IMG/VR virus record: IMGVR_UViG_3300049847_000174
Location: 1 to 29,956 of that record
Direction: 5' to 3' (one strand)
Source of the DNA: a virus
DNA length: 29,956 nucleotides
Under the pieces are notes generated by a model. The model was not told where the DNA came from. It saw only the letters and a list, made by a program, of their open reading frames with translations, and ran no database searches. Each line of letters opens with the position of its first letter. The stretch's first letter is position 1. Shown here in pieces: positions 2,915 through 29,956 of the stretch. The translations under genes and the position numbers were made by a program.

Positions 2915-5900
2915 TTATTTCGCAAAGCGTTGATCACCGCGTTTAGTAGCGTCTGCTACACGATTCTCCGCACTGCTTACGATCTTGGCACCGTAGGACG
3001 CAAGGTCAGACCGTGTAACGCCACCGCCCAGATTGTATGTCAGGTTGGTGGTGTGCTGAACGACTGTACGCCCACCACCGCCACCACCGCCGCCCTGCAT
3101 CCGCACGCCAAGCCGGCCCCGACCGTCCCGGCCCAAGGGCATCACCGCTTCCGGACCAGCCTCACCGGCAACACCAAGGCTACTGCCCAGGCCGTAGCGG
3201 AAGTAGGTTGGGGTAGTTAGGATTGAATTAGAGAACGTGCCGCCATTGGCGAAGGCCCGAGTACTGTTCCCAAAGAAGGCGCCCCCATTGGCAAGTCCCA
3301 GCTCCGCATTCATGCCAGTGTCATACGCACCACCCGAAGAGCCTCCGGTCGATCCGCCAGACTTTGACCCAATACCAATGAGGCCACCAAGCGTATCCGT
3401 CCAGCTGGGCCCGTCTCCGGGCTTACCGCTGGAGAACATAGACTTGACCATATCCCACATGCCAGCCCAGTCAACCTTGTTGAAGGCATTAGTGACCTTG
3501 TCCCAGATGCTGCCCCAATCAGTAGACTTGAAGTAAGCCACACCCTTATCCCAGGCCTCAGTAAGCTGGTCCTTCATCCCGTTGGTCTGGGACTTCTGAG
3601 CCGCACCAAGGCCTGCCGTCATCCAGTCATCCGCCGTATTCGTGGACGGCTTCTGGCCGTTCCACCAGTCGGATAGTTTGGTAGAGAACCCGTCAAGCAG
3701 GTCAGTAGGCTTGCCGCTCTTATCGGATGGGCGAATACCTTCAGCAACCTTGGCCGCAAACGCCTTCACCGGAGCCTTGACCACCGCGTCATAGAAGGCA
3801 TCAGCCAGGGCATCTTTCATCGTCTTGCTAAAGGCCTCACCAAACTTACGCCAGCTGAACCCACCATTAAATAGGTCATGAACACTTGACCGCATCATCG
3901 TATCGAAGCTCGACACGATACGGTCACGCTCCGACTTAAGCTCCGCGATCTTTGTCTTGATGTCATTGATGACCCGGGTGTTGACTTCATCACTCAGGAC
4001 CGAGCCTTCGGTGGCTGCTTGGCCGGCCACCAGCTTATCTCGGGCAGCAGTCAACTGCTTGAGTCGACGCTCCAGCACCTGGACCTGGGTAACTACCGTG
4101 TCCAGCTGAAAGCCCTCAAAGCCGGTAGATGCCAAAGAATCCAACTGTGAACGCGCCTCATCCAAGGCCTTGTTAGTAACCGCAAGGTCCTGGTTGATGG
4201 GGGAGAAGTACTTGGCGTAGTCATCAGCCACCTTCAACAGGGCGAGCTGCTTGTTCAGCTCCTCATCTGACAGGTTCACTGACTTCAGCTTCAAGGCATT
4301 TGCCGTCTGCAGCGAGTCTATCCGCTCCTGCTCGCCCTTGATAAATGTATCCACATCATGCACGGACTTCGGAAGCGGCTGCTCCTTAACAACCTTCACC
4401 TGCTGCATATCACCCATGTGACCCAGCTCTTGGCGGGCACTGGCCAGCGAAGCGCGCATTGCTTCCAGGTCTTTACCTGCCTGAATCTTGAGCTTAGGGT
4501 CATTGCCCTTTAGATCAATCTTCAGCGCATGTTCGAGCTGGGTGCTAATCTCCTGCACCTTGGCAAGGTAGGCTTCGTAGTTGGCCGCACGCTGAGCATA
4601 GGTACGCTGCTCAATGGTAGCAATCTCCGCATTACCGTAGTCCTCGGTAATGAGCTGGGCCTTCATCTTGGCCTGCGTCAACTCCTCGGCCTCTTTGCCA
4701 GCCTTCTCGATCAGCGCATTACGATCCTTGAACTCCTTGTCAAGGGCGTTGAAGGACTGGAACTGTTGGTGGGCAGGGCCTTCAGAGACAGCCGCTTCCC
4801 CGCCCTGCCCTTTGGCCTTGGATCGAGCATCCTTCTGATCCTGCATCTGCGCAAGCTGGATCTTGCGAGCCTGCTCCATGATCCCGGCACGTTTAGCGGC
4901 AATCTCTGCCTCATCAGTGTTATACTGATCGATAGCTGCCTGGATAGCTTTGGAGCCCCCGCGCAGCTGGTCCAGTGCTTCGGTCAGCCCAGGGAAGTCC
5001 TTACCGCTTGCACGTAGAGCCTTGCGCGCAGCCTCCAGCTGGCTGCTATTCAGGCCTTGGAGGTCGTATGACGCGCCGTCACCAAGTTTGGAGTCAATCA
5101 TCTGGCGCAGCGGACCCTGCTGCTCGACAATCCCCTTTACCTTGGCGTCACGCACGGTGCGCGTCTGCATTTCCGCCTGAGTAAGGGCCTCCTCTGTCTG
5201 CAGCTGATCAATGGTCAGGCCCTTGGCCTTGGCTTCATTGATCTGCGTCAGACGTTTCAGCTGTTCATCCAGCGAGTCCTTGTAGACTTTAAGCTTGGCC
5301 TCAGCTCCATCCGCTTCAGTAGAGTTAGCAACACCGCCACGCCAGAAGAGGGCCCACAGAGCCCCGACAGTAGAGAGTGCCACACCAACCGGCCCCAAGA
5401 CTGCCATCGCCCGGGTAGCAGCAGTACCAACCAGGGCGATGCCAGCCGCAGCCCGAGGCGCTGCCACACCTACAGCATTCGCGGCTACCGCCATGCTGGT
5501 AGAGGCAGCAGCTGCCAGCGGAAGCTTTGCCGCAGCAGCAGTGGCACCCACAGCCATAGAGTTGAAGCCAGTGATGACTGCACCCATACCAGCTGCAGTG
5601 ATGGTGGCAACCTTCCACGACAGCCACAGCTTCAACAGAGTAGTTAGCGGTCCGATGTTGTTAACTAGGACTGTTCCAAGGTTGGCCGCTGCGCTGGCCA
5701 GATCCACAATACCCTGCTTGAACTCGGGTGAGGCAAAGATCTCTCGTAGTTTGACAGACGTAACGGCAACCGCACCATCGATCGACTCAAAGGCCTTAGC
5801 GAAAGAGGTGACCATGGTATTGGTCACCGCCTTCATCATGTTCTGCGTGGACGTGTCCATGCTTGCACGAGCTAGGGCAGAGAACCCAGCACTCGTATTA

Positions 5901-11288: not shown

Positions 11289-11761
11289 TATGCTTTCCAG
11301 CCTTTCGATTTCCAGTTGGGCATCTGGTTCATTAGCATATAGACTTTACCCTGTACCAAGTTGACAGGGCGTATCGCTCGACCCTCGGGCCCGAATCCCA
11401 CATCTACGTCATCAGCGTAAGGCGCCGTATTGTAGATGAAGACCTGTTGGCCATACTTAAACGATCCGTTAAAGTGGCTGAACCCGACACCGACCGCAGG
11501 ATCATTGCCCTTCTGGAAGGGAGCAGCATTCGGGTAACCAAAGCCGGGGCGCAAGTCGTTAAACCCTGCGGTAGGGCTGGTACCTACGTACCAGTTTGAA
11601 GCCAGGGTACCTGAATACTGCGGAGTGTTTACCACCACATCGGCATAGGTTTCACGTACCGCAAGAGTAAACTTGTCGTCAGCGTAGGCCCGGATCTTCT
11701 TCCGCTCATCTGCCAGGGCCCGACCCAGCGCCGCCAGATCGTTAGATTTAATCGTAATCAT
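11288..11761 (-). CDS. HK97 gp10-like head-tail / tail completion protein
   Basis: This encodes 157 residues. The ATG overlaps the stop of the preceding gene as ATGA. The segment VNTPQYSGTLASNWYVGTSP is typical of HK97 gp10-like (lambda Z-like) proteins, which carry a (V)NTPVxTGxLRxSW style motif after an N-terminal helix; the helix here is about residues 10-40. Later YNTAPYADDVDVG also fits, as these proteins often show an N..PYA..ve pattern. The role known for the family is completion of the tail end that joins the head. Confidence is good for the family type, moderate for the exact role. Confidence 0.72.
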   Translation of the reverse strand: MITIKSNDLAALGRALADERKKIRAYADDKFTLAVRETYADVVVNTPQYSGTLASNWYVGTSPTAGFNDLRPGFGYPNAAPFQKGNDPAVGVGFSHFNGSFKYGQQVFIYNTAPYADDVDVGFGPEGRAIRPVNLVQGKVYMLMNQMPNWKSKGWKA

Positions 11762-12585
11762 GCGTCACGCACCTGGACAAGCCACGCGTCACGGTCAGGA
11801 ACCACCGACACGATGCGCCGCTCACCCTGGGTCAGGGTGACCTTGCCACCCACGTGAGGAGTGACCAAAGCAGTAGGCACCAGGAGGGATATATCCCCCA
11901 CCTGAGGCTTTGCAGACATGGCGTCGACAGCCCTATACAAGCGGGTGCTGGGAGCGTACAGTGCAGGGACACTGGGTGATGCACCACTATAGGTGTCATT
12001 GATCGGGTCGTAAGTCGTGCCTGCAAAACTCACCGTCTGAACGCCGACCAGCTCTTGGCACTCCAGCACGGCAAGTCCCTCCAGCGGAAGGTGGTAATTG
12101 AAGACCCGCAGATACAGGGCCCCGATCTGAATGACCGTGCCAACTGCGGCCGTCTCTGCCGGGGCCATGTAGACGTTCCACACGACAGTCGAATCACTGC
12201 CGTTTAGGGGGTCCTTCTGCTCGTTGAAGTACTCCAGCTGAGCATAGGCAGTGGCCGAGGTGACACCTTGGGCCATGGCTCCCGGGTTACTGTAACCCGC
12301 CAGGGACATCGCCTTTTTCATATTGTAGGACTGACGAATCGCATCCTCTTCCCAGGCGTCCGAGTTGCCATCACCAACAATCCAGTAGCTCTCAAGGATC
12401 TTGATGGCCCGGCGGGCCGGCAGACTCAGGCCGGTACCAATGGACAGGATTCGACGGGTAGACGTAGAGCCAACCACGTTCGCGTCATTGAAGCTTGAGA
12501 ACTGGGCCTTGAACAGGTACGCCCCGGTATACGCATCGTAGACCGAGGTGGTGTCAAAGAACACAGCAGCGTCTTCAAGGCGCAT
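11758..12585 (-). CDS. Head-tail connector / head completion protein, unrecognised family
   Basis: This encodes 275 residues with the ATG 2 nt after the preceding stop. The N-terminal half is mixed (VVGSTSTRRILSIGTGLSLP and a helical KILESYWIVGDGNSDAW region). The C-terminal part, about residues 200-275, is beta-rich (VGGKVTLTQGERRIVSVVPD) and looks like a head-closure or stopper barrel. Position between the connector-like 166-aa gene and the gp10-like gene supports a neck role. The gene carries one copy of the GGGTTAC/GTAACCC palindrome (12283-12299), encoding part of AGYSNPGA. I do not recognise a named family. Confidence 0.5.
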   Translation of the reverse strand: MRLEDAAVFFDTTSVYDAYTGAYLFKAQFSSFNDANVVGSTSTRRILSIGTGLSLPARRAIKILESYWIVGDGNSDAWEEDAIRQSYNMKKAMSLAGYSNPGAMAQGVTSATAYAQLEYFNEQKDPLNGSDSTVVWNVYMAPAETAAVGTVIQIGALYLRVFNYHLPLEGLAVLECQELVGVQTVSFAGTTYDPINDTYSGASPSVPALYAPSTRLYRAVDAMSAKPQVGDISLLVPTALVTPHVGGKVTLTQGERRIVSVVPDRDAWLVQVRDA

Positions 12586-13465: not shown

Positions 13466-14683
13466 TTAGGCGATGGTCAGCACGTCGAACGCTTCGTCCC
13501 ACTGACGGTAAGCGATCATGCCGGTGTCGATACGCACGGCCTCGGTCTTGCGCATGGTGAACTGCTCGGTAGCCTTGTAGTCGGCATCCGTGTTGCGCAC
13601 ACGCACGATGCCTTGCCGGCTGTCCAGGCCCCACAGCGTATTGGCGGGAACCGGACCGCCGTCGACCGCCGCATCAACGATGTAGAACGTGACGTTCTCA
13701 CCGAAGAAGGGGTTGCTGATCAGCGGCTGCGGCACCGGCGCTTCGATGGTGGGGTTGTAGGCAGCCACGTTCGGGCGGCCCGTCATCTGAACCACCTTCA
13801 GCCAGGCATCGATGTCGCAGATGACATGGCTGATCTTGCGGGTCTTGTTGCGACGCAGCCACTTGATCCAGCTCTTGTAGGTGACAGCGCCACCCGACGC
13901 AGACGCATCCAGTGAGGTGGTGGTCACACCACTAATGGCGCCGATGTTGATGTCGGTATCGCCACCCCACAGGTCAGCCAGCTGCTCGTTGACGCGGGCA
14001 TACTCCTCGACCATCATCGAGCGGGCCAGCGTCAGACCCATCAGGTCCAGCGTGGTGGACTTCAGCGCTTCCATGCTGAATTCCATACCGATCGAATACG
14101 TCGGAATCTTGCGGACCTTACCGGACGTTCCGAAGCGGACCATCGCGGTAGGCTCAGACCACTGGCTGATGCGCTGCGGGCGAGCACGGTTGGCACCTTG
14201 AGCACCGCCCAGGGTCTCGTAGTCGATGATGGGCTGCTCGAAGTTGGGCGATGCCAGCGACATGTCCAGGGCGATCATGCCGTTGAAGATGGCGGGATCT
14301 TCGGTCAGGTCCTTGTACAGGCGGGCTTCGGCCATTTCGATGATGACCGAGGTGAAGACGAGCCGCGACTCGCTGCCACCGAAGATGGTGCTGTTCGGCG
14401 TGCTGCCGGAACCTTGCGCAGCCTGGAAGCCACCGACTTCACCGTTCAGCAGCTGGTGCACCGTGGGGGCGCGCAAGCCGTATTGGTTGCGGGCACCCGG
14501 GTCCACGTAGCCCAGCGAAGCTGTCAGCTGACGCCACGCCGAACCCTTGGTGGGATCGGCATTAGGGAACGTGCGGTTGACGTACTGCGGCAGGCTCATC
14601 TGAGCCTGTTGCGCAGCGAACAGGTGTTCGATGGACAGCGTGACCTGATTCTGGCCGCCATCCGTATCAATGAACATCGACAT
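13466..14683 (-). CDS. Major capsid protein
   Basis: This encodes 405 residues from the ATG at 14683, chosen because AAGGAGA precedes it and because a longer upstream frame would run into the decoration gene. The position after protease, scaffold and decoration genes is that of the HK97-fold capsid protein. The sequence opens with MSMFIDTDGGQNQVTLSIEH, contains an E-loop-like Gly/Asn-rich section about residues 60-100, and ends with a beta-rich P-domain region (VRIDTGMIAYRQWDEAFDVL). Size fits the family. The N-terminus does not show an evident long delta domain; scaffolding is probably supplied by the nested start in the protease gene. It forms the icosahedral shell. Confidence 0.85.
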   Translation of the reverse strand: MSMFIDTDGGQNQVTLSIEHLFAAQQAQMSLPQYVNRTFPNADPTKGSAWRQLTASLGYVDPGARNQYGLRAPTVHQLLNGEVGGFQAAQGSGSTPNSTIFGGSESRLVFTSVIIEMAEARLYKDLTEDPAIFNGMIALDMSLASPNFEQPIIDYETLGGAQGANRARPQRISQWSEPTAMVRFGTSGKVRKIPTYSIGMEFSMEALKSTTLDLMGLTLARSMMVEEYARVNEQLADLWGGDTDINIGAISGVTTTSLDASASGGAVTYKSWIKWLRRNKTRKISHVICDIDAWLKVVQMTGRPNVAAYNPTIEAPVPQPLISNPFFGENVTFYIVDAAVDGGPVPANTLWGLDSRQGIVRVRNTDADYKATEQFTMRKTEAVRIDTGMIAYRQWDEAFDVLTIA

Positions 14684-16600: not shown

Positions 16601-16983
16601 TTCTTGGTCTCCTGGGCAGCCTTGATGGCTGTGGTAATTGCCGTAATCAGTGCGGTATGGTCCTGCTGGCGTGCAGGTACTACCAGAGTAATGAGGGCTG
16701 CACCAAGCATGCCCAAGGCTCCAATGATACCGGCAATCACCCACTTGCGGAGTTCCTTGAGGCCGGGCATTTCCACCTCAATGTCATCCAGCCGAGACTG
16801 CAGGTCACCCATCTCCTCTGCCTGATTCTCCTGCATATCGCTAACATGCTGAAGACGCTGAGCGATGAGAGGAACTTGATCAAGCTGAGCAGACATGCGA
16901 CCCAGGGTCGCGTTCATCTGCAGCAAGCTAGTCTGTACGTATCCTATCCGCTCAGCCAGCACTGCGTTGCTGGGCTCATCCAT
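16597..16983 (-). CDS. Small coiled-coil membrane protein between portal and protease
   Basis: This encodes 128 residues. Its start overlaps the portal stop as TAATG and its stop overlaps the protease start as ATGA, so it is firmly embedded in the operon. Residues 1-75 predict as helix with heptad-like spacing (MQENQAEEMGDLQSRLDDIE), and residues about 80-103 form one membrane segment (KWVIAGIIGALGMLGAALIT). The remaining tail is short and polar. The design, a coiled coil followed by a TM segment, recalls XhlA-like or spanin-like lysis factors, but the place inside the head block is unusual for such a gene. I cannot name the family. Confidence 0.6.
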   Translation of the reverse strand: MDEPSNAVLAERIGYVQTSLLQMNATLGRMSAQLDQVPLIAQRLQHVSDMQENQAEEMGDLQSRLDDIEVEMPGLKELRKWVIAGIIGALGMLGAALITLVVPARQQDHTALITAITTAIKAAQETKK

Positions 16984-18470
16984 TACTTGTTACCTCCTCG
17001 CGTGTTCGTGGGTGCATCAGATCGGATTGCCTGCCCACCGGCGGTGTTCTTTACACCGCCGGGAGCATTCGTAAAGCTGTTCGCATTAGGGTCAGGCTTA
17101 TTAACTGTGAACATGGTACCGCTCAGCTTAGCCATGCCCTTAGGCGGCATCTTGCCGGTAAGGTCAATCGAAGCCTCTTCATCAGAGATAAGGCCAAATG
17201 ACAGCTGTTCAAGAATCCGTGACTGCTTCTGGGCGCGGAATGCCTCCAACTCATTGGAGGGGCGCAAGTCGATGGGGTCGTATTCGAAGCGAACAATGAC
17301 ATCCGCACCCATAAGACGCACACCAAGGGTCAGAGCCCGACTGTAGAGTTCATTGAGTTTGACTCGAATAGCCCCATCGGCCGACTTCAGAAACATCAGG
17401 GTTTCTGACGACGCAACATTTTGACTGCCTGACCCGTGCCCCAGGATGGACGGCAAGGCCTTGGCACCAGTAGACAACTTGGCATTCAGCAGCTCTTGGA
17501 CAGTAGTGATGAGTGAGGAAGCCTCACCAGTACCACCCTGAACATAGCTGTATTCGACGTTGTCATAGCCAACCAAAGCGTCTTCAGGGTTGAGCGCATT
17601 GACCGTGGTTTCGATACCCGTCTTCAGGCCTGACAACATACTATTAAGTTTTTCGGCATCCTGCTTGACTTCGGCAGGGATAACGGCCAGGGTCTTGTCC
17701 AGGTTGATCACCGCCTGGAAGCGAGGCATGATCGTGCGCGACAGCGCATTACGCAGTTGATCCATAAAGCTCGCATCTGCGATTACCGGCTGAACCGCAG
17801 CAAGGAGCGGGGACGTCGGGTACGCGTTCAGCAGATCCTGGTCAAGCGAGGTATAGAAGAAGTTAGCCACGTCCAAGTCGATCTGGTCGCCACCGACCTT
17901 CTGCTTGGGTCGTAGACCTTGACCGTCTTCATACCACACGAGGCTGCTCACAGGCACCGGGGCAAGCAACTCAGGCTGCCGTTGCTTGTTGAGCCGAAGA
18001 CTGAAGGCACAGGCACCTTCAATAATCAACTCCTTACCGAGGGCTTCCGAGACAGACTGGATGCTGGGCGTATTAGAGAAGCCCTGCACAGTGTAGTCAG
18101 GCAACATATCCCAACGGTTCAGCAGTTCATAGGCGATGCGAGTAGCATCACCATTGAACTCACCATCCATATCGAAGGCCTTGACCTTGTAGCCCTGCGT
18201 GATAGCAACACGCAGATATGCAAACAACGCAGCCGCCAGATCCGGGGTGGTCTGGGCAAACTTGCGAATTGTAAGTGCATCCTTCGCCTCCGTTCGTGCA
18301 GTGTTGAGATGCGACTGCGCGACACGGGCGGAAGGGTTTGTGAGTACCGTGGTCGAAGGGGTGGTACTCTTGGCATGCCCAGGAAAGCTGGGCTGACCCG
18401 GCTTCACCTTGGGCGGTGCCACCGGGGCGAAGGCGCTGGCCAAAGCTGATTTTACAAAGTCAAAGTCCAT
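16983..18470 (-). CDS. Portal protein
   Basis: This encodes 495 residues, located after terminase and before the protease. The start ATG is at 18470. It shows the mixed pattern of portal proteins: a structured core containing SLVWYEDGQGLRPKQKVGGD, the segment DLDVANFFYTSLDQDLLNAY, a long helical middle (about residues 230-300), and a later SSLITTVQELLNAKLSTGAK region, followed by a low-complexity C-terminus rich in Asn, Gly and Thr (residues 455-495). The dodecameric portal forms the DNA entry channel and binds terminase. Size is in the normal range (450-550). The assignment rests on order, length and overall sequence style. Confidence 0.85.
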   Translation of the reverse strand: MDFDFVKSALASAFAPVAPPKVKPGQPSFPGHAKSTTPSTTVLTNPSARVAQSHLNTARTEAKDALTIRKFAQTTPDLAAALFAYLRVAITQGYKVKAFDMDGEFNGDATRIAYELLNRWDMLPDYTVQGFSNTPSIQSVSEALGKELIIEGACAFSLRLNKQRQPELLAPVPVSSLVWYEDGQGLRPKQKVGGDQIDLDVANFFYTSLDQDLLNAYPTSPLLAAVQPVIADASFMDQLRNALSRTIMPRFQAVINLDKTLAVIPAEVKQDAEKLNSMLSGLKTGIETTVNALNPEDALVGYDNVEYSYVQGGTGEASSLITTVQELLNAKLSTGAKALPSILGHGSGSQNVASSETLMFLKSADGAIRVKLNELYSRALTLGVRLMGADVIVRFEYDPIDLRPSNELEAFRAQKQSRILEQLSFGLISDEEASIDLTGKMPPKGMAKLSGTMFTVNKPDPNANSFTNAPGGVKNTAGGQAIRSDAPTNTRGGNK

Positions 18471-18500: not shown

Positions 18501-20150
18501 TCAATGTTTGACCTTGAAGGTGGTCGGCACCAGCATATTCATCATGTTAACCACTGGTGAACATGGGAGCTTTGTGCCCAGGTACAGGTAGGCAAGGGCA
18601 TGGTGGTAGTGATCATTGCCCACCTCCGATTTCTTCCACACATACACCGTTTCACCCAGGTTGTTGATTTCCGGGGCTTTCTTCATATCCTGAAGCTGCT
18701 CGGTGAAAATGGGCGTTTCATCATCCCGCGCAATCTTGATACGACGAGCCTTGAACAGTGCAAGGATCTCGTCAAATACCATGTTGCGATTAACCTTCAG
18801 CGCTCGAAGCGTATCCGGTTCATCCTCCTCTTTACCGCCGAAGGTGTACAGGTCCTGCTGTTGGCCGCGCACGTAAACCGAGCAGTAAGCATCAGGGTCT
18901 TCTGCCTGCATACGGAACGCCGTATCTGTATAGGGCAGCATATCCATATTCTTGACAATGCAGCGATACTTGCTGCACAGCTCCTTACGGCGCCGTTCAT
19001 AGTTTTGAAGCGGGATGCGCTCCTTGTGTACTACAAGCAGATCATTTCCAACCATGCGACCAATGACAGCATTACAGGTCAGTCCCATGTCTGACGCAAA
19101 GACGTTGTAGCCGCCGTCCAGCTGGTCAGTTGTATAGGCAGCCTCCAGGTCATCCTGCGTGATGGTGTCAGAGGCTTCCTCAGCAGTAAGGCCCAAGTTC
19201 TGGTTCTTGAACTCAGAGTACCGGCGGTACTTGACCGATTTCTCCAGCAGCTGCTGTATGCTGATCAGGTTGGGCGCATCAAAGGGAGAGATATAGAATC
19301 CCTCCGCAGAGAATCGGGCAGCAGGATTCTCCGCTACCCATTCCCGGTTCTTCGGTGACAGGTCAGCGCGGGTGCCGCAGCGAGGGCAGGCTACATATGC
19401 CCGCATGTAGTGAGTGTTCGGCAGCGTGTACTTGTCCAGTTCCCAAAGCTCCTTGCTCCATCCGGGCAGCACAACGTGCTTAAAGAAGTCAGGATAGTAA
19501 CGCTCATTACACGAGGTGCATTTCGTGAACTGCTTATAGCGCACACTCCGCTGCATACAGGCGTCAATACCTCGACCCGCTACAGTGGGGGTAGAAAAGT
19601 TGCGGCGCAGCTGCCACTTAGAGTGAGTCAGTCGAGATTCATACTGATCAAGTACATCCTGGTTTGATCGGTCAATCTCATCCGAGATAATGCAGTCAGC
19701 AGGGGTCGAAATCGCAGCCGTCTCGGAGTTGGTACCCTTAAAGTATATGGTACCCGTACCCAGCCGTTTGATGGAAGAGTTCCAGAGGTTGCCATCCTTC
19801 AGTCGGGCAAGGCGAGGCGACTGGTCAACCACCAAGTCCACCCGGGTCTTGGCGAAGTTCTCCGCATCCTGACTGAATGGGAAGGTATAGATAATGTTGA
19901 AGTCAGGTATGGTGGCGATAGCGGCCAGTCCCCAGCGAGACTGCGCTTCCGTCATGCCAATCTGCGAGCACTTCTGGGAGTTTACCTCTCGGGCAGCAGA
20001 AGAAATAACCTTGAGCTGAAACTCATGGTCAATAAAGCTATACTGACCACCCTTAATATAAGTGTGGTCAGTAATGAATCCCGGAATAGCGGAGAGGTCG
20101 ACTCGACCCATCAACTGGTATTCGAGTCGTGTATACAGGTCATCAAACAT
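18501..20150 (-). CDS. Terminase large subunit, lambda gpA-like
   Basis: This encodes 549 residues. The ATPase shows a deviant Walker A KCSQIGMTE at residues 60-68, which aligns with the KSARVGYSK form of lambda gpA, where the catalytic Lys is at the front. Walker B is CIISDEID at 153-160. A coupling motif NFSTPT follows at 184-189. A zinc ribbon is formed by C211/C214 and C255/C258, also a gpA-family trait. The nuclease domain shows Asp354 (FASDMG), Asp403 and Asp513 (NDHYHHALAY). The gene overlaps the small-subunit gene by 8 bp. It cleaves and translocates DNA into the prohead. gpA-like enzymes are usually cos-type, so cohesive ends are inferred. Confidence 0.92.
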   Translation of the reverse strand: MFDDLYTRLEYQLMGRVDLSAIPGFITDHTYIKGGQYSFIDHEFQLKVISSAAREVNSQKCSQIGMTEAQSRWGLAAIATIPDFNIIYTFPFSQDAENFAKTRVDLVVDQSPRLARLKDGNLWNSSIKRLGTGTIYFKGTNSETAAISTPADCIISDEIDRSNQDVLDQYESRLTHSKWQLRRNFSTPTVAGRGIDACMQRSVRYKQFTKCTSCNERYYPDFFKHVVLPGWSKELWELDKYTLPNTHYMRAYVACPRCGTRADLSPKNREWVAENPAARFSAEGFYISPFDAPNLISIQQLLEKSVKYRRYSEFKNQNLGLTAEEASDTITQDDLEAAYTTDQLDGGYNVFASDMGLTCNAVIGRMVGNDLLVVHKERIPLQNYERRRKELCSKYRCIVKNMDMLPYTDTAFRMQAEDPDAYCSVYVRGQQQDLYTFGGKEEDEPDTLRALKVNRNMVFDEILALFKARRIKIARDDETPIFTEQLQDMKKAPEINNLGETVYVWKKSEVGNDHYHHALAYLYLGTKLPCSPVVNMMNMLVPTTFKVKH

Positions 20151-25614: not shown

Positions 25615-25747
25615 GAAAGTTTGAAAATATGTTGCGAAATTTGGGGGGAGGTGAGGCCGGCCTGCCTGCGCCGACACGTGGAAAGTGTACCCGTCCTACG
25701 GTGTGCGCCGTGGTCCCTGCCCACCGGGCTTGCGAGGCCGGCGGCCT

Positions 25748-25799
25748 ACCCTGTCAACCTACCCTGTCAACCTACCCTAACACATAACCCTGTCAACCT
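25748..25799. repeat. 13-bp iterons (ACCCTGTCAACCT)
   Basis: Perfect copies occupy 25748-25760, 25761-25773 and 25787-25799. A degenerate copy (ACCCTAACACATA) fills 25774-25786, so the four units are in phase. The reverse strand of each perfect copy reads AGGTTGACAGGGT, which includes TTGACA. No matching -10 lies at proper distance, so initiator or repressor binding is favoured over promoter function. Confidence 0.8.
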
Positions 25800-25855
25800 G
25801 TCCTGACACTGTCTGCACTGTGCACGACTCGCTTGTTTACAGTATTTTACACCCG

Positions 25856-25871
25856 GGTTTCACGTGAAACA
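25856..25871. promoter_or_regulatory. parS-like centromere site
   Basis: The 14-bp perfect palindrome GTTTCACGTGAAAC (25857-25870) equals the core of the bacterial chromosomal parS site bound by ParB/Spo0J. With the flanks it is GGTTTCACGTGAAACA, differing from the common 16-mer by one outer base. It lies 3 bp before a perfect DnaA box. The sequence match is seen; ParB binding is inferred. An operator for another repressor remains possible. Confidence 0.75.
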
Positions 25872-25873
25872 CC

Positions 25874-25882
25874 TGTGGATAA
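25874..25882 (-). promoter_or_regulatory. DnaA box 1 (perfect TTATCCACA)
   Basis: Plus-strand TGTGGATAA is the complement of the consensus DnaA box. It sits within CTGTGGATAACTCAC, a 15-bp direct repeat shared with the second box 115 bp to the right. Confidence 0.75.
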
Positions 25883-25988
25883 CTCACAAACTGCCATTGT
25901 TTGCACCCATACCCTACTATATCCGCAGTGTTGACCCCCCTTAAACGCCCGATTAGACCCCTTGCCGGGGCATGTATACCTAACCAGC

Positions 25989-25997
25989 TGTGGATAA
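25989..25997 (-). promoter_or_regulatory. DnaA box 2 (perfect TTATCCACA)
   Basis: Second perfect box in the same orientation, again within CTGTGGATAACTCAC. The two flanking regions continue to share short blocks (GCACCC, CCGC), so they seem to be diverged copies of one segment. Host DnaA recruitment is the inferred use. Confidence 0.75.
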
Positions 25998-26036
25998 CTC
26001 ACTCTGCCCCTATTGTCCGCACCCTAAAAATACCGC

Positions 26037-26066
26037 TTGCACTGCCCCGGTTAAACATGCCATAAT
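26037..26066 (+). promoter_or_regulatory. Rightward sigma-70 promoter candidate
   Basis: TTGCAC and CATAAT are 18 bp apart, and TGC directly before the -10 gives an extended -10. It points toward the small plus-strand genes and lies 40 bp after DnaA box 2. Confidence 0.6.
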
Positions 26067-26092
26067 CCAACCATGGGATGAAAGAGGCCCGA

Positions 26093-26111
26093 CGGGTTAC
26101 CCGGTAACCCG
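26093..26111 (+). repeat. GGGTTAC/GTAACCC palindrome, copy 1
   Basis: CGGGTTACC pairs with GGTAACCCG around a single C, between the two rightward promoter candidates. This is the first plus-region copy of the recurrent family. It lies inside a leader rather than directly before a start codon. Confidence 0.75.
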
Positions 26112-26129
26112 GCCCTCCTAAACAAGGGC

Positions 26130-26158
26130 TTGCAATACCGGATGCCTTGTGCCAGAAT
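26130..26158 (+). promoter_or_regulatory. Second rightward promoter candidate
   Basis: TTGCAA and CAGAAT are separated by 17 bp, with TGC before the -10, the same design as the promoter at 26037. Both may drive the plus-strand cluster. The -10 is less perfect. Confidence 0.5.
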
Positions 26159-26231
26159 CAAGGCCTGTTCTTTAAAAACCTGACCTAGCTAGCCGGCTGC
26201 GAAGCCTGCCCTAGACACCCCGCTAAGCGCG

Positions 26232-26268
26232 GGGTTACCAGTAGGCCGCCCCGGCCTACTGTTAACCC
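26232..26268 (+). repeat. GGGTTAC-type palindrome, copy 2 (long)
   Basis: GGGTTACCAGTAGGCCG pairs with CGGCCTACTGTTAACCC around CCC with one mismatch, 17 positions long. It ends 13 nt before the 43-aa ORF. A smaller hairpin (CCCCGC with GCGGGG) lies just before it and shares its first bases. Confidence 0.75.
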
Positions 26269-26281
26269 TACAAAGGCACCC

Positions 26282-26413
26282 ATGCAAAACGCACAAAACC
26301 AAGCCCGCAAGGTTCTCCCCATGAACGGCGGCACCCCAGTATTTAACATGCCCCCCCAAGGGCTGGCACTGGCCCCCAAGGGCCCACAACACCCGCTGGC
26401 GCCCCGCAAGTAG
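26282..26413 (+). CDS. 43-residue small protein, hypothetical
   Basis: The start ATG is preceded by AAAGGCACCC, the same AAAGGCA ribosome-binding leader used by several later genes, and by a long hairpin of the recurrent family. That is the main support. The product begins MQNAQNQARKVLPMNGGTPV and ends HPLAPRK; it is Pro/Gln-rich, basic and low in structure. No homology recognised. It may be a real small early protein or a leader peptide. Confidence 0.5.
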   Translation: MQNAQNQARKVLPMNGGTPVFNMPPQGLALAPKGPQHPLAPRK

Positions 26414-26424
26414 CGTCCTCCCTA

Positions 26425-26446
26425 TGCACCCCCTAGCCGGGGTGCA
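26425..26446 (+). other. Hairpin overlapping the operator-like palindromes
   Basis: TGCACCCC pairs perfectly with GGGGTGCA around CTAGCC. It has no T-run. Its last bases are shared with the first palindrome at 26443, so the two RNA folds exclude each other. Confidence 0.5.
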
Positions 26447-26477
26447 CTGACAGTGCATAACGTGCACTGTCAGTGCA
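26443..26477. promoter_or_regulatory. Tandem 15-bp palindromes, operator-like
   Basis: TGCACTG-A-CAGTGCA (26443-26457) and TGCACTG-T-CAGTGCA (26463-26477) are perfect inverted repeats whose centres are 20 bp apart, about two helical turns. Each is part of an 18-bp direct repeat. They lie 36 bp before the next start codon. Dimeric repressor sites are the simplest reading; RNA hairpins are an alternative. Confidence 0.65.
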
Positions 26478-26512
26478 TATCGCACAAACCCCCTAAACCT
26501 AAGGAACTGATC

Positions 26513-27175
26513 ATGAGCACCAAGCAATTCAAACAAGCCGCTGCAACCCTGTTTGCAAGCATCCTGGCAGCCGAGACCCTGCGCGATGACGTCAAGAATG
26601 CAACCCTGATGGCCGATGCACTGCAAACGGATGCGTTTGCTGAAACCCTGGCCATTGTCAAGGCCTATGTCGAAGAGAACGGCGCCGCTGACAAGGGCGC
26701 CGTTTACAAACTCGCTGAAGACTGCATGAGCGAACTTCAGGCCTTGAGAACGGCAGAGCTAAAGCGTGCCGGCTTGAGCACGAAAGACGCCACGGGCAAG
26801 AAGGACGCAATCTGTAACAGGCTGGCCGTCTACAAAAACCGCATCCTTTCAGGTCTCGAAAAGCGCGGCACGCTAGAACAGCCCACCCCGGAACAACTCA
26901 AGGCCGAGAAAGAAACGGCAAAGACTACAAAAGCCAGCGCTGAAGCCCTGAAATCGGCGCAAGCATCGCAAGGCCTGCGACCCGTCACGGTGTCCGAACT
27001 GCTACAAGCCTTGTCCCTGGCCGTGACGGCTGGCGCGCTGGACCGGGCCGAGTGGGCAGCCGCAAAACATCTTGCCATGCGCATCGATGCGGGCTTTGCG
27101 GCTTTCCATGGCACGCAAGCGCCGATGAACATGGGTGACGTTGTCGAAGTGGTCGGACCCGCGCTCACCCACTAA
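26513..27175 (+). CDS. Hypothetical early protein, 220 aa
   Basis: Start at ATG 26513 with AAGGAA 6 nt before; a frame extension upstream to 26453 crosses the tandem palindromes and is rejected. The protein is helical, Ala/Lys/Glu-rich: FKQAAATLFASILAAETLRD, then AELKRAGLSTKDATGKKDAI, a Lys/Ala linker (TAKTTKASAEALKSAQ) and a C-terminal domain (VSELLQALSLAVTAGALDRA). No enzyme motif. It could be a DNA-binding or host-interaction protein. It follows operator-like sites and may be a regulated early gene. It is followed by two strong hairpins. Confidence 0.8.
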   Translation: MSTKQFKQAAATLFASILAAETLRDDVKNATLMADALQTDAFAETLAIVKAYVEENGAADKGAVYKLAEDCMSELQALRTAELKRAGLSTKDATGKKDAICNRLAVYKNRILSGLEKRGTLEQPTPEQLKAEKETAKTTKASAEALKSAQASQGLRPVTVSELLQALSLAVTAGALDRAEWAAAKHLAMRIDAGFAAFHGTQAPMNMGDVVEVVGPALTH

Positions 27176-27181
27176 GCACCA

Positions 27182-27210
27182 CCCCAAGGGTTACCCCGTA
27201 ACCCTTGGGG
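27182..27210 (+). repeat. GGGTTAC-type palindrome, copy 3
   Basis: CCCCAAGGGTTAC pairs perfectly with GTAACCCTTGGGG around CCC, 13 bp. It lies 6 bp after the stop of the 220-aa gene and abuts the next hairpin. The outer pairs (CCCCAA with TTGGGG) differ from other copies but stay paired. Confidence 0.8.
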
Positions 27211-27249
27211 GTTAAACCCGCTAGCCCGTCAGGCTGGCGGGTTTAACCC
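27209..27249 (+). other. Long hairpin after the 220-aa gene
   Basis: GGGTTAAACCCGCTAGCC pairs with GGCTGGCGGGTTTAACCC around CGTCA. All 18 positions pair, one as G-U. It ends 19 nt before the next start. There is no T-run; processing or insulation of mRNA is as likely as termination. Confidence 0.65.
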
Positions 27250-27272
27250 CTAACGCTAAAGGCATAACATGA
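27239..27272 (+). promoter_or_regulatory. Repeated leader with ribosome-binding site, first copy
   Basis: The 34 bases from GGGTTTAACCCCTAA to AAAGGCATAACATGA match 27655-27688 at 32 positions. AAAGGC serves as SD. The repeat includes the start codon of the 53-aa gene, so leader and start moved or were kept as one module. Confidence 0.7.
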
Positions 27273-27430
27273 CAACATGGCATTTAGTGGGCAAGTCGCG
27301 CAGTGATCTGCGCGTGTGCTCTCCTCTGACCTTATCCGCGTGGATGTCGCGCGGGTATGCCCCCCTTTTGACGGGGCGCCTCTCAGACATGCATGCGCAC
27401 AAAGCGCGCATTCTAGGGGGCGCAAAATGA
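27269..27430 (+). CDS. 53-residue hypothetical protein
   Basis: The ATG is inside the repeated leader AAAGGCATAAC-ATG, the best start evidence in this stretch. The product begins MTTWHLVGKSRSDLRVCSPL and ends KARILGGAK; it is basic. Its stop overlaps the next start as ATGA, so it is coupled to the 67-aa gene. A longer alternative frame for the next gene begins at 27316 with GTG and no SD and is rejected. No family recognised. Confidence 0.55.
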   Translation: MTTWHLVGKSRSDLRVCSPLTLSAWMSRGYAPLLTGRLSDMHAHKARILGGAK

Positions 27431-27630
27431 TGTTCGCCCTATACTGGCCAGCACAGCGCGGGGAACCCGCTGTAAGGCATGGAAAGCTGGCGCAAACTGA
27501 AACGCAAGCTCTAGCACGCTTAAAGCGTGCCCCAGTCGGCGCCACTGTGCGCACATGGCCAGAAGATATAACGCATGCGGTAAAGCGTGCGCCGGACCTA
27601 GTCACCCGGCTGGCAGAATACCTGTTGTAA
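27427..27630 (+). CDS. 67-residue hypothetical protein
   Basis: It begins at the first of two adjacent ATG codons, overlapping the preceding stop, with AGGGGG about 7 nt upstream. The protein (MMFALYWPAQRGEPAVRHGK, then LARLKRAPVGATVRTWPEDI, ending RLAEYLL) is small, basic and possibly a helix-strand-helix domain. No family recognised. It is followed by palindrome copy 4. Confidence 0.6.
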   Translation: MMFALYWPAQRGEPAVRHGKLAQTETQALARLKRAPVGATVRTWPEDITHAVKRAPDLVTRLAEYLL

Positions 27631-27636
27631 ACCCTG

Positions 27637-27657
27637 CCCGGGTTACAGTAACCCGGG
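27637..27657 (+). repeat. GGGTTAC-type palindrome, copy 4
   Basis: CCCGGGTTAC and GTAACCCGGG surround a single A, a perfect palindrome. It begins 6 bp after a stop and ends 27 nt before the lipoprotein start. Confidence 0.8.
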
Positions 27658-27688
27658 TTTAACCCCTAATGCTAAAGGCATATCATGA
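27655..27688 (+). promoter_or_regulatory. Repeated leader with ribosome-binding site, second copy
   Basis: Matches 27239-27272 at 32 of 34 positions, including AAAGGCATA and the start codon. It directly joins palindrome copy 4, sharing GGG. Confidence 0.7.
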
Positions 27689-27921
27689 AATTCCTGATCC
27701 TGATTTTGTGCGCTTTTCTGGCGGCCTGCGGCGGTGGCGGTGGCGATGATCCGCAGCGCATCCAAGCTTGTCACCCGGATGAATTTGATTGCGTAGCTCT
27801 ATATAAAGGCGAACTACCCTTCATATACTGGTTTGCCGACGCATCCAGTGAACTGCTGATTTTCAGCGACGGTCCGCTGACTACCTATAGTGGCAAAATG
27901 CTTGAAAGAACGCCCTATTGA
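27685..27921 (+). CDS. Small phage lipoprotein
   Basis: This encodes 78 residues with the SD AAAGGCA in the repeated leader. MKFLILILCAFLAAC is a lipoprotein signal with lipobox L12-A13-A14-C15; Gly at +2 favours outer-membrane sorting in Gram-negative cells. A five-Gly linker follows, then a 58-residue domain with two more Cys (ACHPDEFDC) that could pair. Phage lipoproteins of this size often act in superinfection exclusion (Llp of T5 type) or as outer spanins. Being among small plus-strand genes far from the endolysin favours exclusion, but this is inference. Confidence 0.8.
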   Translation: MKFLILILCAFLAACGGGGGDDPQRIQACHPDEFDCVALYKGELPFIYWFADASSELLIFSDGPLTTYSGKMLERTPY

Positions 27922-27930
27922 TGGTATACT
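27902..27930 (+). promoter_or_regulatory. Strong sigma-70 promoter candidate
   Basis: TTGAAA and TATACT are exactly 17 bp apart, inside and just after the 3' end of the lipoprotein gene. It would give a transcript starting near 27937 that runs through a highly folded 240-nt leader toward the 87-aa gene. Confidence 0.65.
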
Positions 27931-27961
27931 AGGTGCCTAGGTTGAAGATCCTAGGCGCTTT

Positions 27962-27985
27962 GTCCGGGTTACCAGTAACCCGGAC
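27962..27985 (+). repeat. GGGTTAC-type palindrome, copy 5
   Basis: GTCCGGGTTAC pairs with GTAACCCGGAC around CA. The outer T and A extend it to 12 pairs. It lies inside the putative leader RNA and not directly before a start codon. Confidence 0.8.
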
Positions 27986-28122
27986 AGCCTCGCAAGGCCT
28001 GAGCTTTGCGAGGCTGTCCGATAAGGCCCGACGGGGCTGGACAGTACGCGAGGGTTACGTTTGTTTGCTGCTTTGTTTTCGATAACTCGTTAAACGGTGG
28101 AAAAGCAAAAGCAGCCGGTTTT

Positions 28123-28146
28123 GCCCGGGTTACGAATAACCCGGGC
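28123..28146 (+). repeat. GGGTTA-type palindrome, copy 6
   Basis: GCCCGGGTTA pairs with TAACCCGGGC around CGAA. It ends 28 nt before the 87-aa gene. Here the spacer differs from the other copies (the inner C-G pair is missing) while the stem stays perfect. Confidence 0.8.
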
Positions 28147-28174
28147 CCATTCACCTAACCTAGAGGGTTTACTT

Positions 28175-28438
28175 ATGCAGATTCATCGATTCATTGACCC
28201 TGCCGTGGCTGCTGCTGAGCCGGCAGCCATCGCCCGCGCAGTGCTGCGCATTCACCAGCGCGGCGCAGAGTATGCCCGAAATGCCCTCCACGCATACACC
28301 CCCCGCAACAAGGCTGGATGGTTCGAACTGTTGATCGTGTTCGGCTGCAACGAACAGGGTGACTTCACCCCGGGCCAGTCGATGACGGTGTGCATGATCC
28401 AGCGCACGCCTGAGGCTGAATTCGAATTCCATTCCTGA
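28175..28438 (+). CDS. 87-residue hypothetical protein
   Basis: Start at ATG 28175 with AGAGGG 7 nt before; upstream in-frame codons lie across palindrome copy 6 and are rejected. The product begins MQIHRFIDPAVAAAEPAAIA, followed by helices (ARAVLRIHQRGAEYARNALH) and a strand pair (GWFELLIVFGCNEQGDFTPG, then TVCMIQRT). It ends EAEFEFHS. No family recognised; alpha/beta, soluble. It lies between palindromes copy 6 and copy 7. Confidence 0.75.
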   Translation: MQIHRFIDPAVAAAEPAAIARAVLRIHQRGAEYARNALHAYTPRNKAGWFELLIVFGCNEQGDFTPGQSMTVCMIQRTPEAEFEFHS

Positions 28439-28444
28439 AACCCT

Positions 28445-28467
28445 GTCCGGGTTACTGTAACCCGGAC
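28445..28467 (+). repeat. GGGTTAC-type palindrome, copy 7
   Basis: GTCCGGGTTAC and GTAACCCGGAC surround a single T. It ends 12 nt before the 24-codon ORF and is followed by GAAAGGCACAAC, the family ribosome-binding leader. Confidence 0.8.
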
Positions 28468-28479
28468 GAAAGGCACAAC

Positions 28480-28554
28480 ATGATCCGTATGTATTCTGTC
28501 GACCTGGGCTGCTACCTGTGCAGCCTGGACATGATCACATGGTGGCGCGAATGA
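28480..28554 (+). CDS. 24-residue leader peptide / micro-protein
   Basis: The start has the AAAGGCACAAC leader. The product begins MIRMYSVDLGCYLCSLDMIT and ends in WWRE. Its stop overlaps the ATG of the next gene as ATGA, so its translation probably delivers ribosomes to the 74-aa gene, which lacks its own SD. Cys-x2-Cys (C11, C14) is present. It may be a coupling leader rather than a functional protein. Confidence 0.5.
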   Translation: MIRMYSVDLGCYLCSLDMITWWRE

Positions 28555-28775
28555 TCGCCGCCCGCGCTTACCGGGTGCGCTACCTGGGAATGACGAACAC
28601 CAAGGGTGCACGCTGGACTGTCCAGACTGCGGGCGGTGCCACCATGCAGTGGGATGCCACCATGCACACCATGGACGAAGCGGTGTCGGCATACGCTTTC
28701 CCGCAGGATGTCAGCGAGGCGCACAAAGCCGAGCTGCCTAACGGGGACGTGGTCTACACCATCCCGAAGATCTAA
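28551..28775 (+). CDS. 74-residue hypothetical protein
   Basis: The ATG overlaps the stop of the 24-codon ORF. A start at 28518 in the same frame has no SD. The protein opens MIAARAYRVRYLGMTNTKGA, with beta strands and a helix (MDEAVSAYAFPQDVSEAHKA), and ends DVVYTIPKI. It looks like a compact beta-beta-alpha-beta domain. No family recognised. Followed by palindrome copy 8. Confidence 0.7.
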   Translation: MIAARAYRVRYLGMTNTKGARWTVQTAGGATMQWDATMHTMDEAVSAYAFPQDVSEAHKAELPNGDVVYTIPKI

Positions 28776-28781
28776 CCACGC

Positions 28782-28808
28782 GGGCCCGGGTTACAGTAAC
28801 CCGGGCCC
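28782..28808 (+). repeat. GGGTTAC-type palindrome, copy 8
   Basis: GGGCCCGGGTTAC and GTAACCCGGGCCC surround a single A: a perfect 27-bp palindrome, the strongest of the family. It ends 20 nt before the envelope-protein gene. Confidence 0.85.
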
Positions 28809-28828
28809 TTACTCTAGGAGTTTCTAAC

Positions 28829-29431
28829 ATGTTCGCAGTAATGCTGTCTGTCTTCCTTGCCTGCTGCGCCCTCGGCGCCCTGGTGTGTTTCCTGGCTGCA
28901 TGGCAAGTCGCGAGCCCGGTCGTACGTTCAAACCTGGCACTCGCGCTGCTCTTCGCCCTCGTCATCTGTGCGTCGACAGTGGCGCAAGCCCAGACGGTGG
29001 GGCTTCATGCCTACACCTACCATGCCAAGGAGGGCGAGCCCACAGACTGTCAAATAGGCACCTGCACCGGACACTACCAAAACCGCACTCGTGGCCTATA
29101 CGTGGTGCATGATGGCTATATCGCGGGCGCTTACTGCAACTCATTCAGCCTGCCCCAGTACAACGCGGTCAACCTCATTCAGCAGCGCAGTTGCAACCTG
29201 ACGTGGCACGGTGGCAAGGTGTGGACCCTCGCAGGTGGTGATTCCTGGGACCTATCGGCCAGCCTGGAGGCGGTTGTGGGCTACAAGGCTAACGTGCCTG
29301 CCCTTGTTCGCATCCCGGGTGTGGCGGATATCATCGCCATGCCTGCGATTTCTGCCCGCTTTGGGCCTCTTCGTGCCACGGTATTCAGCCCGAATGCCGT
29401 GCATTTCAGCCTGGAATACAGGTTACAGTAA
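28829..29431 (+). CDS. Probable exported envelope / outer-membrane protein
   Basis: This encodes 200 residues with SD TAGGAG. Two hydrophobic stretches (about 2-25 and 35-53) precede AQA-QT at residues 52-56, a good signal-peptidase site. The mature part has pairs of Cys (DCQIGTC), then RTRGLYVVHDGYIAGAYCNS, a pattern I associate with small phage or bacterial beta-barrel proteins. The last segment VHFSLEY alternates hydrophobic residues and ends in an aromatic, like a barrel beta-signal, but is followed by RLQ encoded by a palindrome copy. Role could be surface change or superinfection exclusion. The length of the N-terminus is unusual. Confidence 0.65.
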   Translation: MFAVMLSVFLACCALGALVCFLAAWQVASPVVRSNLALALLFALVICASTVAQAQTVGLHAYTYHAKEGEPTDCQIGTCTGHYQNRTRGLYVVHDGYIAGAYCNSFSLPQYNAVNLIQQRSCNLTWHGGKVWTLAGGDSWDLSASLEAVVGYKANVPALVRIPGVADIIAMPAISARFGPLRATVFSPNAVHFSLEYRLQ

Positions 29432-29433
29432 CC
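29421..29433 (+). repeat. GGGTTAC-type palindrome, copy 9 (short, supplies stop codon)
   Basis: GGTTAC-A-GTAACC (followed by CGG) overlaps the end of the envelope gene. Its TAA is the gene's stop codon, and it encodes the last residues L-Q. It ends 11 nt before the next start. Confidence 0.7.
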
Positions 29434-29444
29434 CGGAGAACGAC

Positions 29445-29732
29445 ATGCGTGCTACCTTTACCGCCCCCAACAATGCCACGGTGACCGTGGAACATGGCCC
29501 GGTGTCGCAGGCACTCGCCGCCCTGCACCCGAACGGGACCATCCTGGAAGCCCTGGGGGGGCACTGCGAAAAGATCGACGGCGTGTGGCGCCCCGTGCAA
29601 AACGGGCAGGCCCAGCTAGACAGTATTGCAGCGGCTTTCGAGCGGCGCTGCCGTGCTGCTGCGGTGCGTAAGGCTGCTGCCGGGGTGAACTCCACCCTTG
29701 AAGCCCGCGCACACTGTCCGCAAGCTCTTTGA
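29445..29732 (+). CDS. 95-residue hypothetical protein
   Basis: Start at ATG 29445 with GGAGA about 6 nt before; a longer frame from 29211 lies in the shadow of the envelope gene. The product begins MRATFTAPNNATVTVEHGPV, with a short beta part, then a helical Ala/Arg-rich part (DSIAAAFERRCRAAAVRKAA). No family recognised. It is the last supported gene of the window. Confidence 0.65.
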   Translation: MRATFTAPNNATVTVEHGPVSQALAALHPNGTILEALGGHCEKIDGVWRPVQNGQAQLDSIAAAFERRCRAAAVRKAAAGVNSTLEARAHCPQAL

Positions 29733-29746
29733 GGCGTGAGCCCGGG

Positions 29747-29813
29747 AAAGTGTCACGGAGGGTGAATGCCAGTAACGCCACGTTACTAATCACGCAGTTT
29801 CCGTTGCCACTTT
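29747..29813 (+). other. Nested inverted repeat after the small-gene cluster
   Basis: Outer arms AAAGTGTCACGGA (29747-29759) and TCCGTTGCCACTTT (29800-29813) pair imperfectly; inside lies AGTAACG-CCA-CGTTACT (29771-29787). The 3' arm runs into TTTTCT, so it could end transcription. The rest of 29733-29956 shows no supported gene. Confidence 0.45.
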
Positions 29814-29956
29814 TCTCGTTTCGGGTTTCGTCAAGAAATACCGTGTTATGAAATTGTGAGATTCCCTGAAATACAACACGAGTAAAAAAGGGAAGCACCC
29901 ACGAGCCGGTGGGCAAGTCGCCCCCAAGGTGTGCATCGGGCCCCCGGATTTTCCTA

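Follow-up and report, generated by a model that had tools for sequence, protein, structure and literature searches.

Phage-specific palindromes upstream of gene starts in ~80-kb siphophages: candidate operators with stoperator-like features

The genomes of cluster A mycobacteriophages such as L5 and Bxb1 each carry 20-30 near-identical stoperators, which are phage- or subcluster-specific, lie mostly away from promoters, and pair with a DNA-binding protein encoded by the phage (PMC6550527). Cluster K mycobacteriophages carry short repeats of unknown function just upstream of many start codons. These are the start-associated sequence (SAS), a 13-bp asymmetric motif, GGGATAGGAGCCC, and its extended form (ESAS), imperfect 17-bp inverted repeats with a variable spacer and a consensus that varies between phages (PMC3203893). 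Here we describe a palindrome that recurs between small genes of a linear virus record of 29,956 bases (IMG/VR record IMGVR_UViG_3300049847_000174; all of it was analyzed and is called the window below), together with palindromes of other sequence in related phages. We favor, with moderate confidence, the view that these repeats are phage-specific duplex-DNA sites for a dimeric phage-encoded regulator that would act in a stoperator-like manner and autoregulate its own gene.

Recurrent palindromes in the window and its relatives

Eight copies of GGTTAC-(1-3 nt)-GTAACC, or of a close variant in the case of the copy at 28123, lie within positions 26093-29433 of the window (Table 1). The looser pattern GGTTA-N(1-9)-TAACC occurs eight times in 26000-29956, where 0.021 occurrences are expected and 1000 Markov shuffles gave at most one. 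The top recurrent palindrome with 6-nt arms in the same interval has seven copies, compared with at most two in 300 shuffles. A first-pass annotation of the window had listed nine copies with a constant inner core. The recurrence is real and eight of the listed sites are true copies, but the ninth, at 26232, is GGGTTACCAGTAGGCCGCCCCGGCCTACTGTTAACCC, a longer hairpin with other inner arms that has only GGGTTA/TAACCC in common with the rest; a full copy, CGGGTTACTGTAACCCG, at 12283-12299 had been missed and may be due to chance. Nor is the core constant: one, two or three bases separate GTTAC from GTAAC, the copy at 28123 carries TTACGAATAA and has lost the final C-G pair, and the copy at 29421 has AGGTTAC.

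The palindrome of the window is absent from 13 named phages and from 51 other virus records, except for contig L007, which was itself found by pattern search. Viral contigs searched for the exact 19-mer and 16-mer gave scattered single matches only. The earlier suggestion of a spreading palindromic repeat, if taken as spread from the host, is unsupported because the 19-mer occurs in bacteria and archaea at chance level, once each in only five of ~85,000 genomes. In L007, CCGGGTTACCAKCAACCCGG forms a tandem array with a period of ~35 bp at 5786-5980.

A blind scan for recurrent palindromes revealed that many relatives, identified through the large terminase subunit (TerL), each carry a palindrome of their own; shuffled sequences gave at most three copies. 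These palindromes include GATCCTGACATGTCAGGATC, TTTCCCCGGCCGGGGAAA, TTGTGTGAATTCACACAA, [CG]TGTCCANNTGGACA[GC], TGTTCCCGGGAACA, and others. In Vibrio phage 51E28.4, TTGGTCTNAGACCAA occurs 38 times, and related Vibrio phages have 13-41 palindrome copies. Records G025 and G026 each contain 17 copies, G030 contains nine, the window, G042 and L067 eight each, and L042 seven. Among isolates, GTTCGTNACGAAC is present 12 times in Achromobacter phage JWF and 11 times in Achromobacter phage 2-1, GGGGTAACGTTACCCC 10 times in Pseudoalteromonas phage KB12-38, and TTTACC-N2-3-GGTAAA nine times in Caulobacter phage Seuss, terminal-repeat duplicates being included in the counts. No palindrome exceeded three copies, the shuffle level, in phages UAntarctica, PMBT3, Lana, or EAb13.

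Some of these genomes contain additional repeats. Contigs L101 and L046 (record G025) also contain GGTCTAGAATCTAGACC, a recurrent palindrome distinct from the main one, several copies of which it adjoins. In KB12-38 (L212-L214), a conserved AATTAAACTAAAACT stretch lies mostly between GGGGTAACGTTACCCC and the start codon. In L067, perfect inverted repeats of great length (arms to ~20 bp) cluster at 14290-14500 around the core TGTGAA-N-TTCACA.

Position of the sites relative to genes

In the relatives, the usual site is just upstream of the Shine-Dalgarno sequence, often directly after the preceding stop codon. A start codon supported by a Shine-Dalgarno sequence follows within 45 nt at 203 of 345 exact copies, compared with 2281 of 15600 random positions (14.6%). 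The association with starts is evident in 51E28.4 (p=7e-16), PS14A.1 (p=6e-23), G025 (p=2e-7), and Lumi (p=5e-4). A site precedes 27 annotated genes of 51E28.4 by no more than 75 nt; the preceding gene is co-directional at 22 of the 27, and at several sites the stop codon overlaps the palindrome or is 2-5 nt away. For the window we used manual gene models to measure distances to starts; the automatic start heuristic mis-handled the copies at 28445 and 27961. The first-pass statement that most copies end 11-28 nt before a start codon holds for six of the nine sites it listed (26232, at 13 nt, included), and the recurrence, the start association and the likening of the element to start-associated repeats are supported.

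The GC-rich stems of the window, close to stop codons, are also what intrinsic transcription terminators might look like. However, no window copy has a U-tract or a terminator-like match, and the terminators annotated by the depositors of JWF are other sequences, none of which coincides with a palindrome copy. Moreover, site position follows the downstream start, and a site can fall inside the upstream gene where the next start demands it. The terminator explanation is largely refuted by these data already, and we regard its probability as close to negligible.

Sites are also kept between related Vibrio phages. Of 19 PS14A.1 orthologs of genes that bear a palindrome (36-83% amino acid identity), 17 have it as well, compared with none of 52 others; SHOU24 has it at five of 10 such orthologs and two of 47 others. 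Since the sites are kept despite the divergence of the proteins, their position is conserved under selection in these phages. This conservation at orthologous genes, like the tight spacing to start codons, argues against the idea that the palindromes are recombination boundaries, at which short identical intergenic sequences would allow exchange of gene cassettes. Such boundaries would be consistent with the crowding of 24 of the 38 palindromes of 51E28.4 into its small-gene region (52-83 kb) and with the tendency of site-bearing genes to be accessory, but that tendency is not significant (p=0.096), and we consider the cassette explanation highly improbable.

The sites of 51E28.4 are not enriched for sigma-70-like promoters (score 6.85 with the palindrome and 6.64 without, p=0.84). 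The Pfam phage integrase domain PF00589 was present in just one of 20 records, other integrase families not having been searched; the record of KB12-38 carries an integrase at its end. Immunity is thus an unlikely purpose of the sites, and the lack of promoter enrichment together with the near-absence of integrases suggests stoperator-like roadblocks in virulent phages.

Duplex sites, RNA hairpins, and candidate regulators

Because a palindrome in a leader can also fold as RNA, we weighed whether the sites are instead hairpins in the mRNA leader upstream of the Shine-Dalgarno sequence, which a factor of the phage or the host would bind or cleave so as to control processing, stability, or translation. 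The sites lie between co-directional genes, in leaders that are probably transcribed, loop lengths vary in the window, and RNA z-scores are as low as -5.9. In addition, the outer arms are complementary beyond chance. For the eight window copies, the mean arm extension was 4.12 bp, compared with 2.40 bp when ungapped flanks were permuted among the copies of one phage (p=0.002), and five other phages (G025, G026, G030, KB12-38, and L067) gave the same outcome. Vibrio phages lack complementary extension (p=0.9995). The covariation that the first-pass annotation had proposed to look for is a feature of the window and these five phages but not of the Vibrio phages, and the complementarity it noticed in the outer arms is confirmed, but not the selection on RNA structure that it read from it.

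If stems were selected as RNA, G-U should outnumber A-C where pairing on the sense strand is broken. In a test pooled over the family, the first broken pair on the gene-sense strand was G-U in 18 cases and A-C in 20 outside the Vibrio phages, and G-U in 21 and A-C in 38 within them. Because there is no excess of G-U over A-C, selection for an RNA hairpin is unsupported across the family. The outer pair of the Vibrio palindromes was T-A in 66, C-A in 32, T-G in 23, and C-G, the compensated pair that RNA would accept, in 0 of 124 copies (Fisher p=0.0005 pooled, but not significant per genome, with copies in related genomes partly dependent). The center of the Vibrio palindrome can be G:C or C:G, which agrees with a symmetric duplex site, and several palindrome sets are perfect through the center (CTGACATGTCAG, TCCCCGGCCGGGGA, TGTTCCCGGGAACA). 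Further, the minimum-energy RNA structure around the copy at 29421 does not contain this hairpin, the best Rfam match (27.2 bits; gathering score 50) did not reach a known RNA family, and a purely structural role would not preserve one exact sequence per phage. Taken together, we judge the RNA hairpin distinctly unlikely as the basis of the repeats.

The extended arms could have another origin. Quasipalindrome correction, in which the replicating strand folds back and switches template, would produce outer arms that are complementary yet different without selection. The sites would then have two layers, a core that is a DNA operator and arms lengthened neutrally during replication, an arrangement that refines the operator interpretation and is compatible with it. 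It fits a core that is fixed within each phage, arm extension in some phages and not in others, and the missing wobble signature. The process is putative, however, and its mechanism is drawn from general knowledge, and we see the two-layer arrangement as possible but somewhat unlikely. For the six arm-extended phages, the explanation may be templated lengthening of the arms or an additional hairpin function.

If the sites are operators, as we favor and as agrees with the "protein-binding element" among the roles first proposed, what might bind them? The palindrome-bearing Vibrio phages tested encode a PadR-family protein (PF03551, 33.6 bits, cut-off 27); the Pfam cut-off was passed in 51E28.4, where the protein is p0067, and in K404. 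Palindrome-less PMBT3, Lana, UAntarctica, and EAb13 have no PadR-family protein. The recognition helix (SHQQVYR) and wing (GKPDSK) of the PadR-like proteins are nearly invariant at an overall identity of 34-40%, and a palindrome lies just upstream of the padR gene in six of six Vibrio phages. The PadR-like protein is thus the best candidate for the regulator in Vibrio phages. JWF, 2-1, Lumi, and Seuss have in common a protein with two helix-turn-helix (HTH) motifs, and HTH proteins of other kinds occur in further records; this variety is in line with the variety of palindromes, without proving a link. HTH_3 proteins were rejected as a general binder: they occur in six of 19 records and do not cover the palindrome-bearing set. 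In Vibrio phages, RdgC-like, DGQHR-motif, and PadR-like genes are close together (MW824400.1 60317-64779; L141).

Based on these results, we infer that the sites, which occupy the gap from the upstream stop codon to the next Shine-Dalgarno sequence across the small-gene (presumably early or accessory) region, are bound by a protein that would most likely impede transcription into the next gene, as a roadblock or an attenuator. The regulator would also autoregulate its own gene, and the network as a whole would throttle transcription into individual small genes. The binder may be PadR-like in Vibrio phages and another HTH protein in other lineages. The palindrome of the window probably works likewise, with a regulator encoded elsewhere in the genome, outside this fragment.

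Several observations weigh against this interpretation. The closest TerL relatives of the window (L014-L018) have no recurrent palindrome in the stretches scanned. Start association is not significant in the small sets of Seuss, G012, G047, and L050, and reaches just p=0.03 in the window under the automatic start caller. The link between PadR and the palindrome is a correlation within one clade, and no palindrome was seen beside the two-HTH protein in JWF or Lumi. The wobble test says very little about the window taken by itself, where the variation of the center from 1 to 3 nt fits poorly with a rigid DNA-bound dimer. Last, the arm extensions of the window, G025, G026, G030, KB12-38, and L067, complementary beyond composition, count against a pure operator because a pure operator needs none.

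More tentatively still, these features could represent a widespread design of ~80-kb proteobacterial siphophages, in which a private operator of each lineage (up to ~40 sites, mostly at gene starts) is paired with a private regulator, PadR-like in Vibrio phages, in a stoperator-like network without lysogeny. We found no description of these palindromes in this phage group in the open-access literature, the part that could be searched, and the design is apparently undescribed so far.

Layout of the window and comparison with described systems

The minus-strand genes of the window encode tape measure, minor tail, major head, head protease, portal, and large terminase proteins; a gap at ~25.7-26.1 kb is followed by small plus-strand open reading frames (ORFs) that match no recognizable family (Table 1). 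TerL and portal match, at 26-36% identity, a diffuse group of ~80-kb siphophages that includes Vibrio phages 51E28.4 and SHOU24, Achromobacter phage JWF, Caulobacter phage Seuss, Pseudomonas phages Lana and PMBT3, and Acinetobacter phage EAb13, and we assign the window as a fragment of this type from these matches. The phage collection contains no relative at the nucleotide level. Single-protein searches with TerL and with a 220-amino acid ORF recovered no relatives; a search with a TerL alignment yielded 80 environmental relatives (26-47% identity).

Table 1. Palindrome copies and other features of the window, with the duplex site of Vibrio phage 51E28.4
Feature	Coordinates	Strand	Sequence or match	Context
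Copy 1	26093..26111		CGGGTTACCCGGTAACCCG	First small plus-strand ORF 170 nt downstream
Copy 2	27182..27210		CCCCAAGGGTTAC-CCC-GTAACCCTTGGGG	Stop codon 7 nt before; ATG 27269 58 nt after
Copy 3	27637..27657		CCCGGGTTAC-A-GTAACCCGGG	Stop codon 7 nt before; ATG 27685 27 nt after
Copy 4	27961..27986		TGTCCGGGTTAC-CA-GTAACCCGGACA	Next start 188 nt after; overlaps hairpin 27981-28020
Copy 5	28123..28146		GCCCGGGTTA-CGAA-TAACCCGGGC	ATG 28175 28 nt after
Copy 6	28445..28467		GTCCGGGTTAC-T-GTAACCCGGAC	Stop codon 7 nt before; ATG 28480 12-13 nt after; abuts GAAAGG
Copy 7	28782..28808		GGGCCCGGGTTAC-A-GTAACCCGGGCCC	Stop codon 7 nt before; ATG 28829 20 nt after
Copy 8	29421..29433		GGTTAC-A-GTAACC	Spans stop codon of upstream gene (29429-29431); ATG 29445 11 nt after
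Extra copy	12283..12299		CGGGTTACTGTAACCCG	In minus-strand ORF 11758-12585, encodes AGYSNPG; away from annotated gene starts
Different long hairpin	26232..26268	+	GGGTTACCAGTAGGCCG/CGGCCTACTGTTAACCC	13 nt before ATG 26282; core differs
Tandem second palindrome	26443..26477		TGCACTG-A-CAGTGCA + TGCACTG-T-CAGTGCA	35 nt before ATG 26513; unrelated to core
TerL	18501..20150	-	phrog_675, E=5.6e-79	Marker for family placement
Portal protein	16983..18470	-	phrog_3753	35-36% identity to Vibrio phage portals
51E28.4 palindrome as duplex			TTTGGTCTSAGACCAAA	Vibrio phage 51E28.4

The tandem palindrome at 26443-26477 is perhaps a different operator. Copy 4 has CGGAC in common with the strong hairpin at 27981-28020, and the two could form competing, attenuator-like stems (27961-28020). 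Between the divergent gene blocks, at 25745-26000, direct repeats of 13 bp (CCTACCCTGTCAA type, four to five copies) are followed by two DnaA-box-like TGTGGATAA motifs, an arrangement that resembles an iteron-containing replication origin. A 35-nt leader, CGGGTTTAACCCCTAACGCTAAAGGCATAACATGA, is duplicated (94% identity) at 27238-27272 and 27654-27688, upstream of two different small genes, and the 78-amino acid ORF at 27685-27921 carries a lipoprotein-type signal, MKFLILILCAFLAACGGGGG.

Should the sites prove to be operators, one viral family would contain many independent pairs of regulator and palindrome, the evolution of DNA-binding specificity could be read from sequence, and stoperator-like control would extend beyond temperate actinobacteriophages. 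Since isolated, culturable phages (Vibrio phages 51E28.4 and PS14A.1 and Achromobacter phage JWF) carry the feature, these ideas are directly testable. For genome annotators, the palindromes offer an easy, phage-specific way to recognize true gene starts.

How do the sites compare with known systems? Multi-site operators of phages and plasmids, such as the KorB operator OB of RK2, combine a short palindrome and a G/C center with many sites per molecule. Unlike that system, none of 27 records here has a PF02195 (ParB_N) protein, so that a ParB/KorB-type binder was rejected. Like the RNase III sites of T7, the hairpins lie between genes; unlike them, sequence and not structure alone is fixed, with no wobble signature, and T7 itself had no recurrent palindrome in an equivalent scan (at most two copies). 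The resemblance to cluster A stoperators is closer, as many phage-specific sites are spread over the genome without promoter enrichment (in 51E28.4). However, stoperators are asymmetric and point in the direction of transcription, and the sites here are palindromic; stoperators belong to temperate phages with an immunity repressor that blocks elongation, and here there is a PadR-like candidate, with PF00589, the one integrase family searched, nearly absent. With the cluster K SAS and ESAS the palindromes share a position just upstream of start codons, but the hosts and the phage family are others, and GGGATAGGAGCCC has no match in the window with up to two mismatches allowed. Overall, the sites would work most like cluster A stoperators and are placed like SAS and ESAS, and they belong to neither group, because they are symmetric, lack the SAS motif, and occur in unrelated and apparently non-temperate phages.

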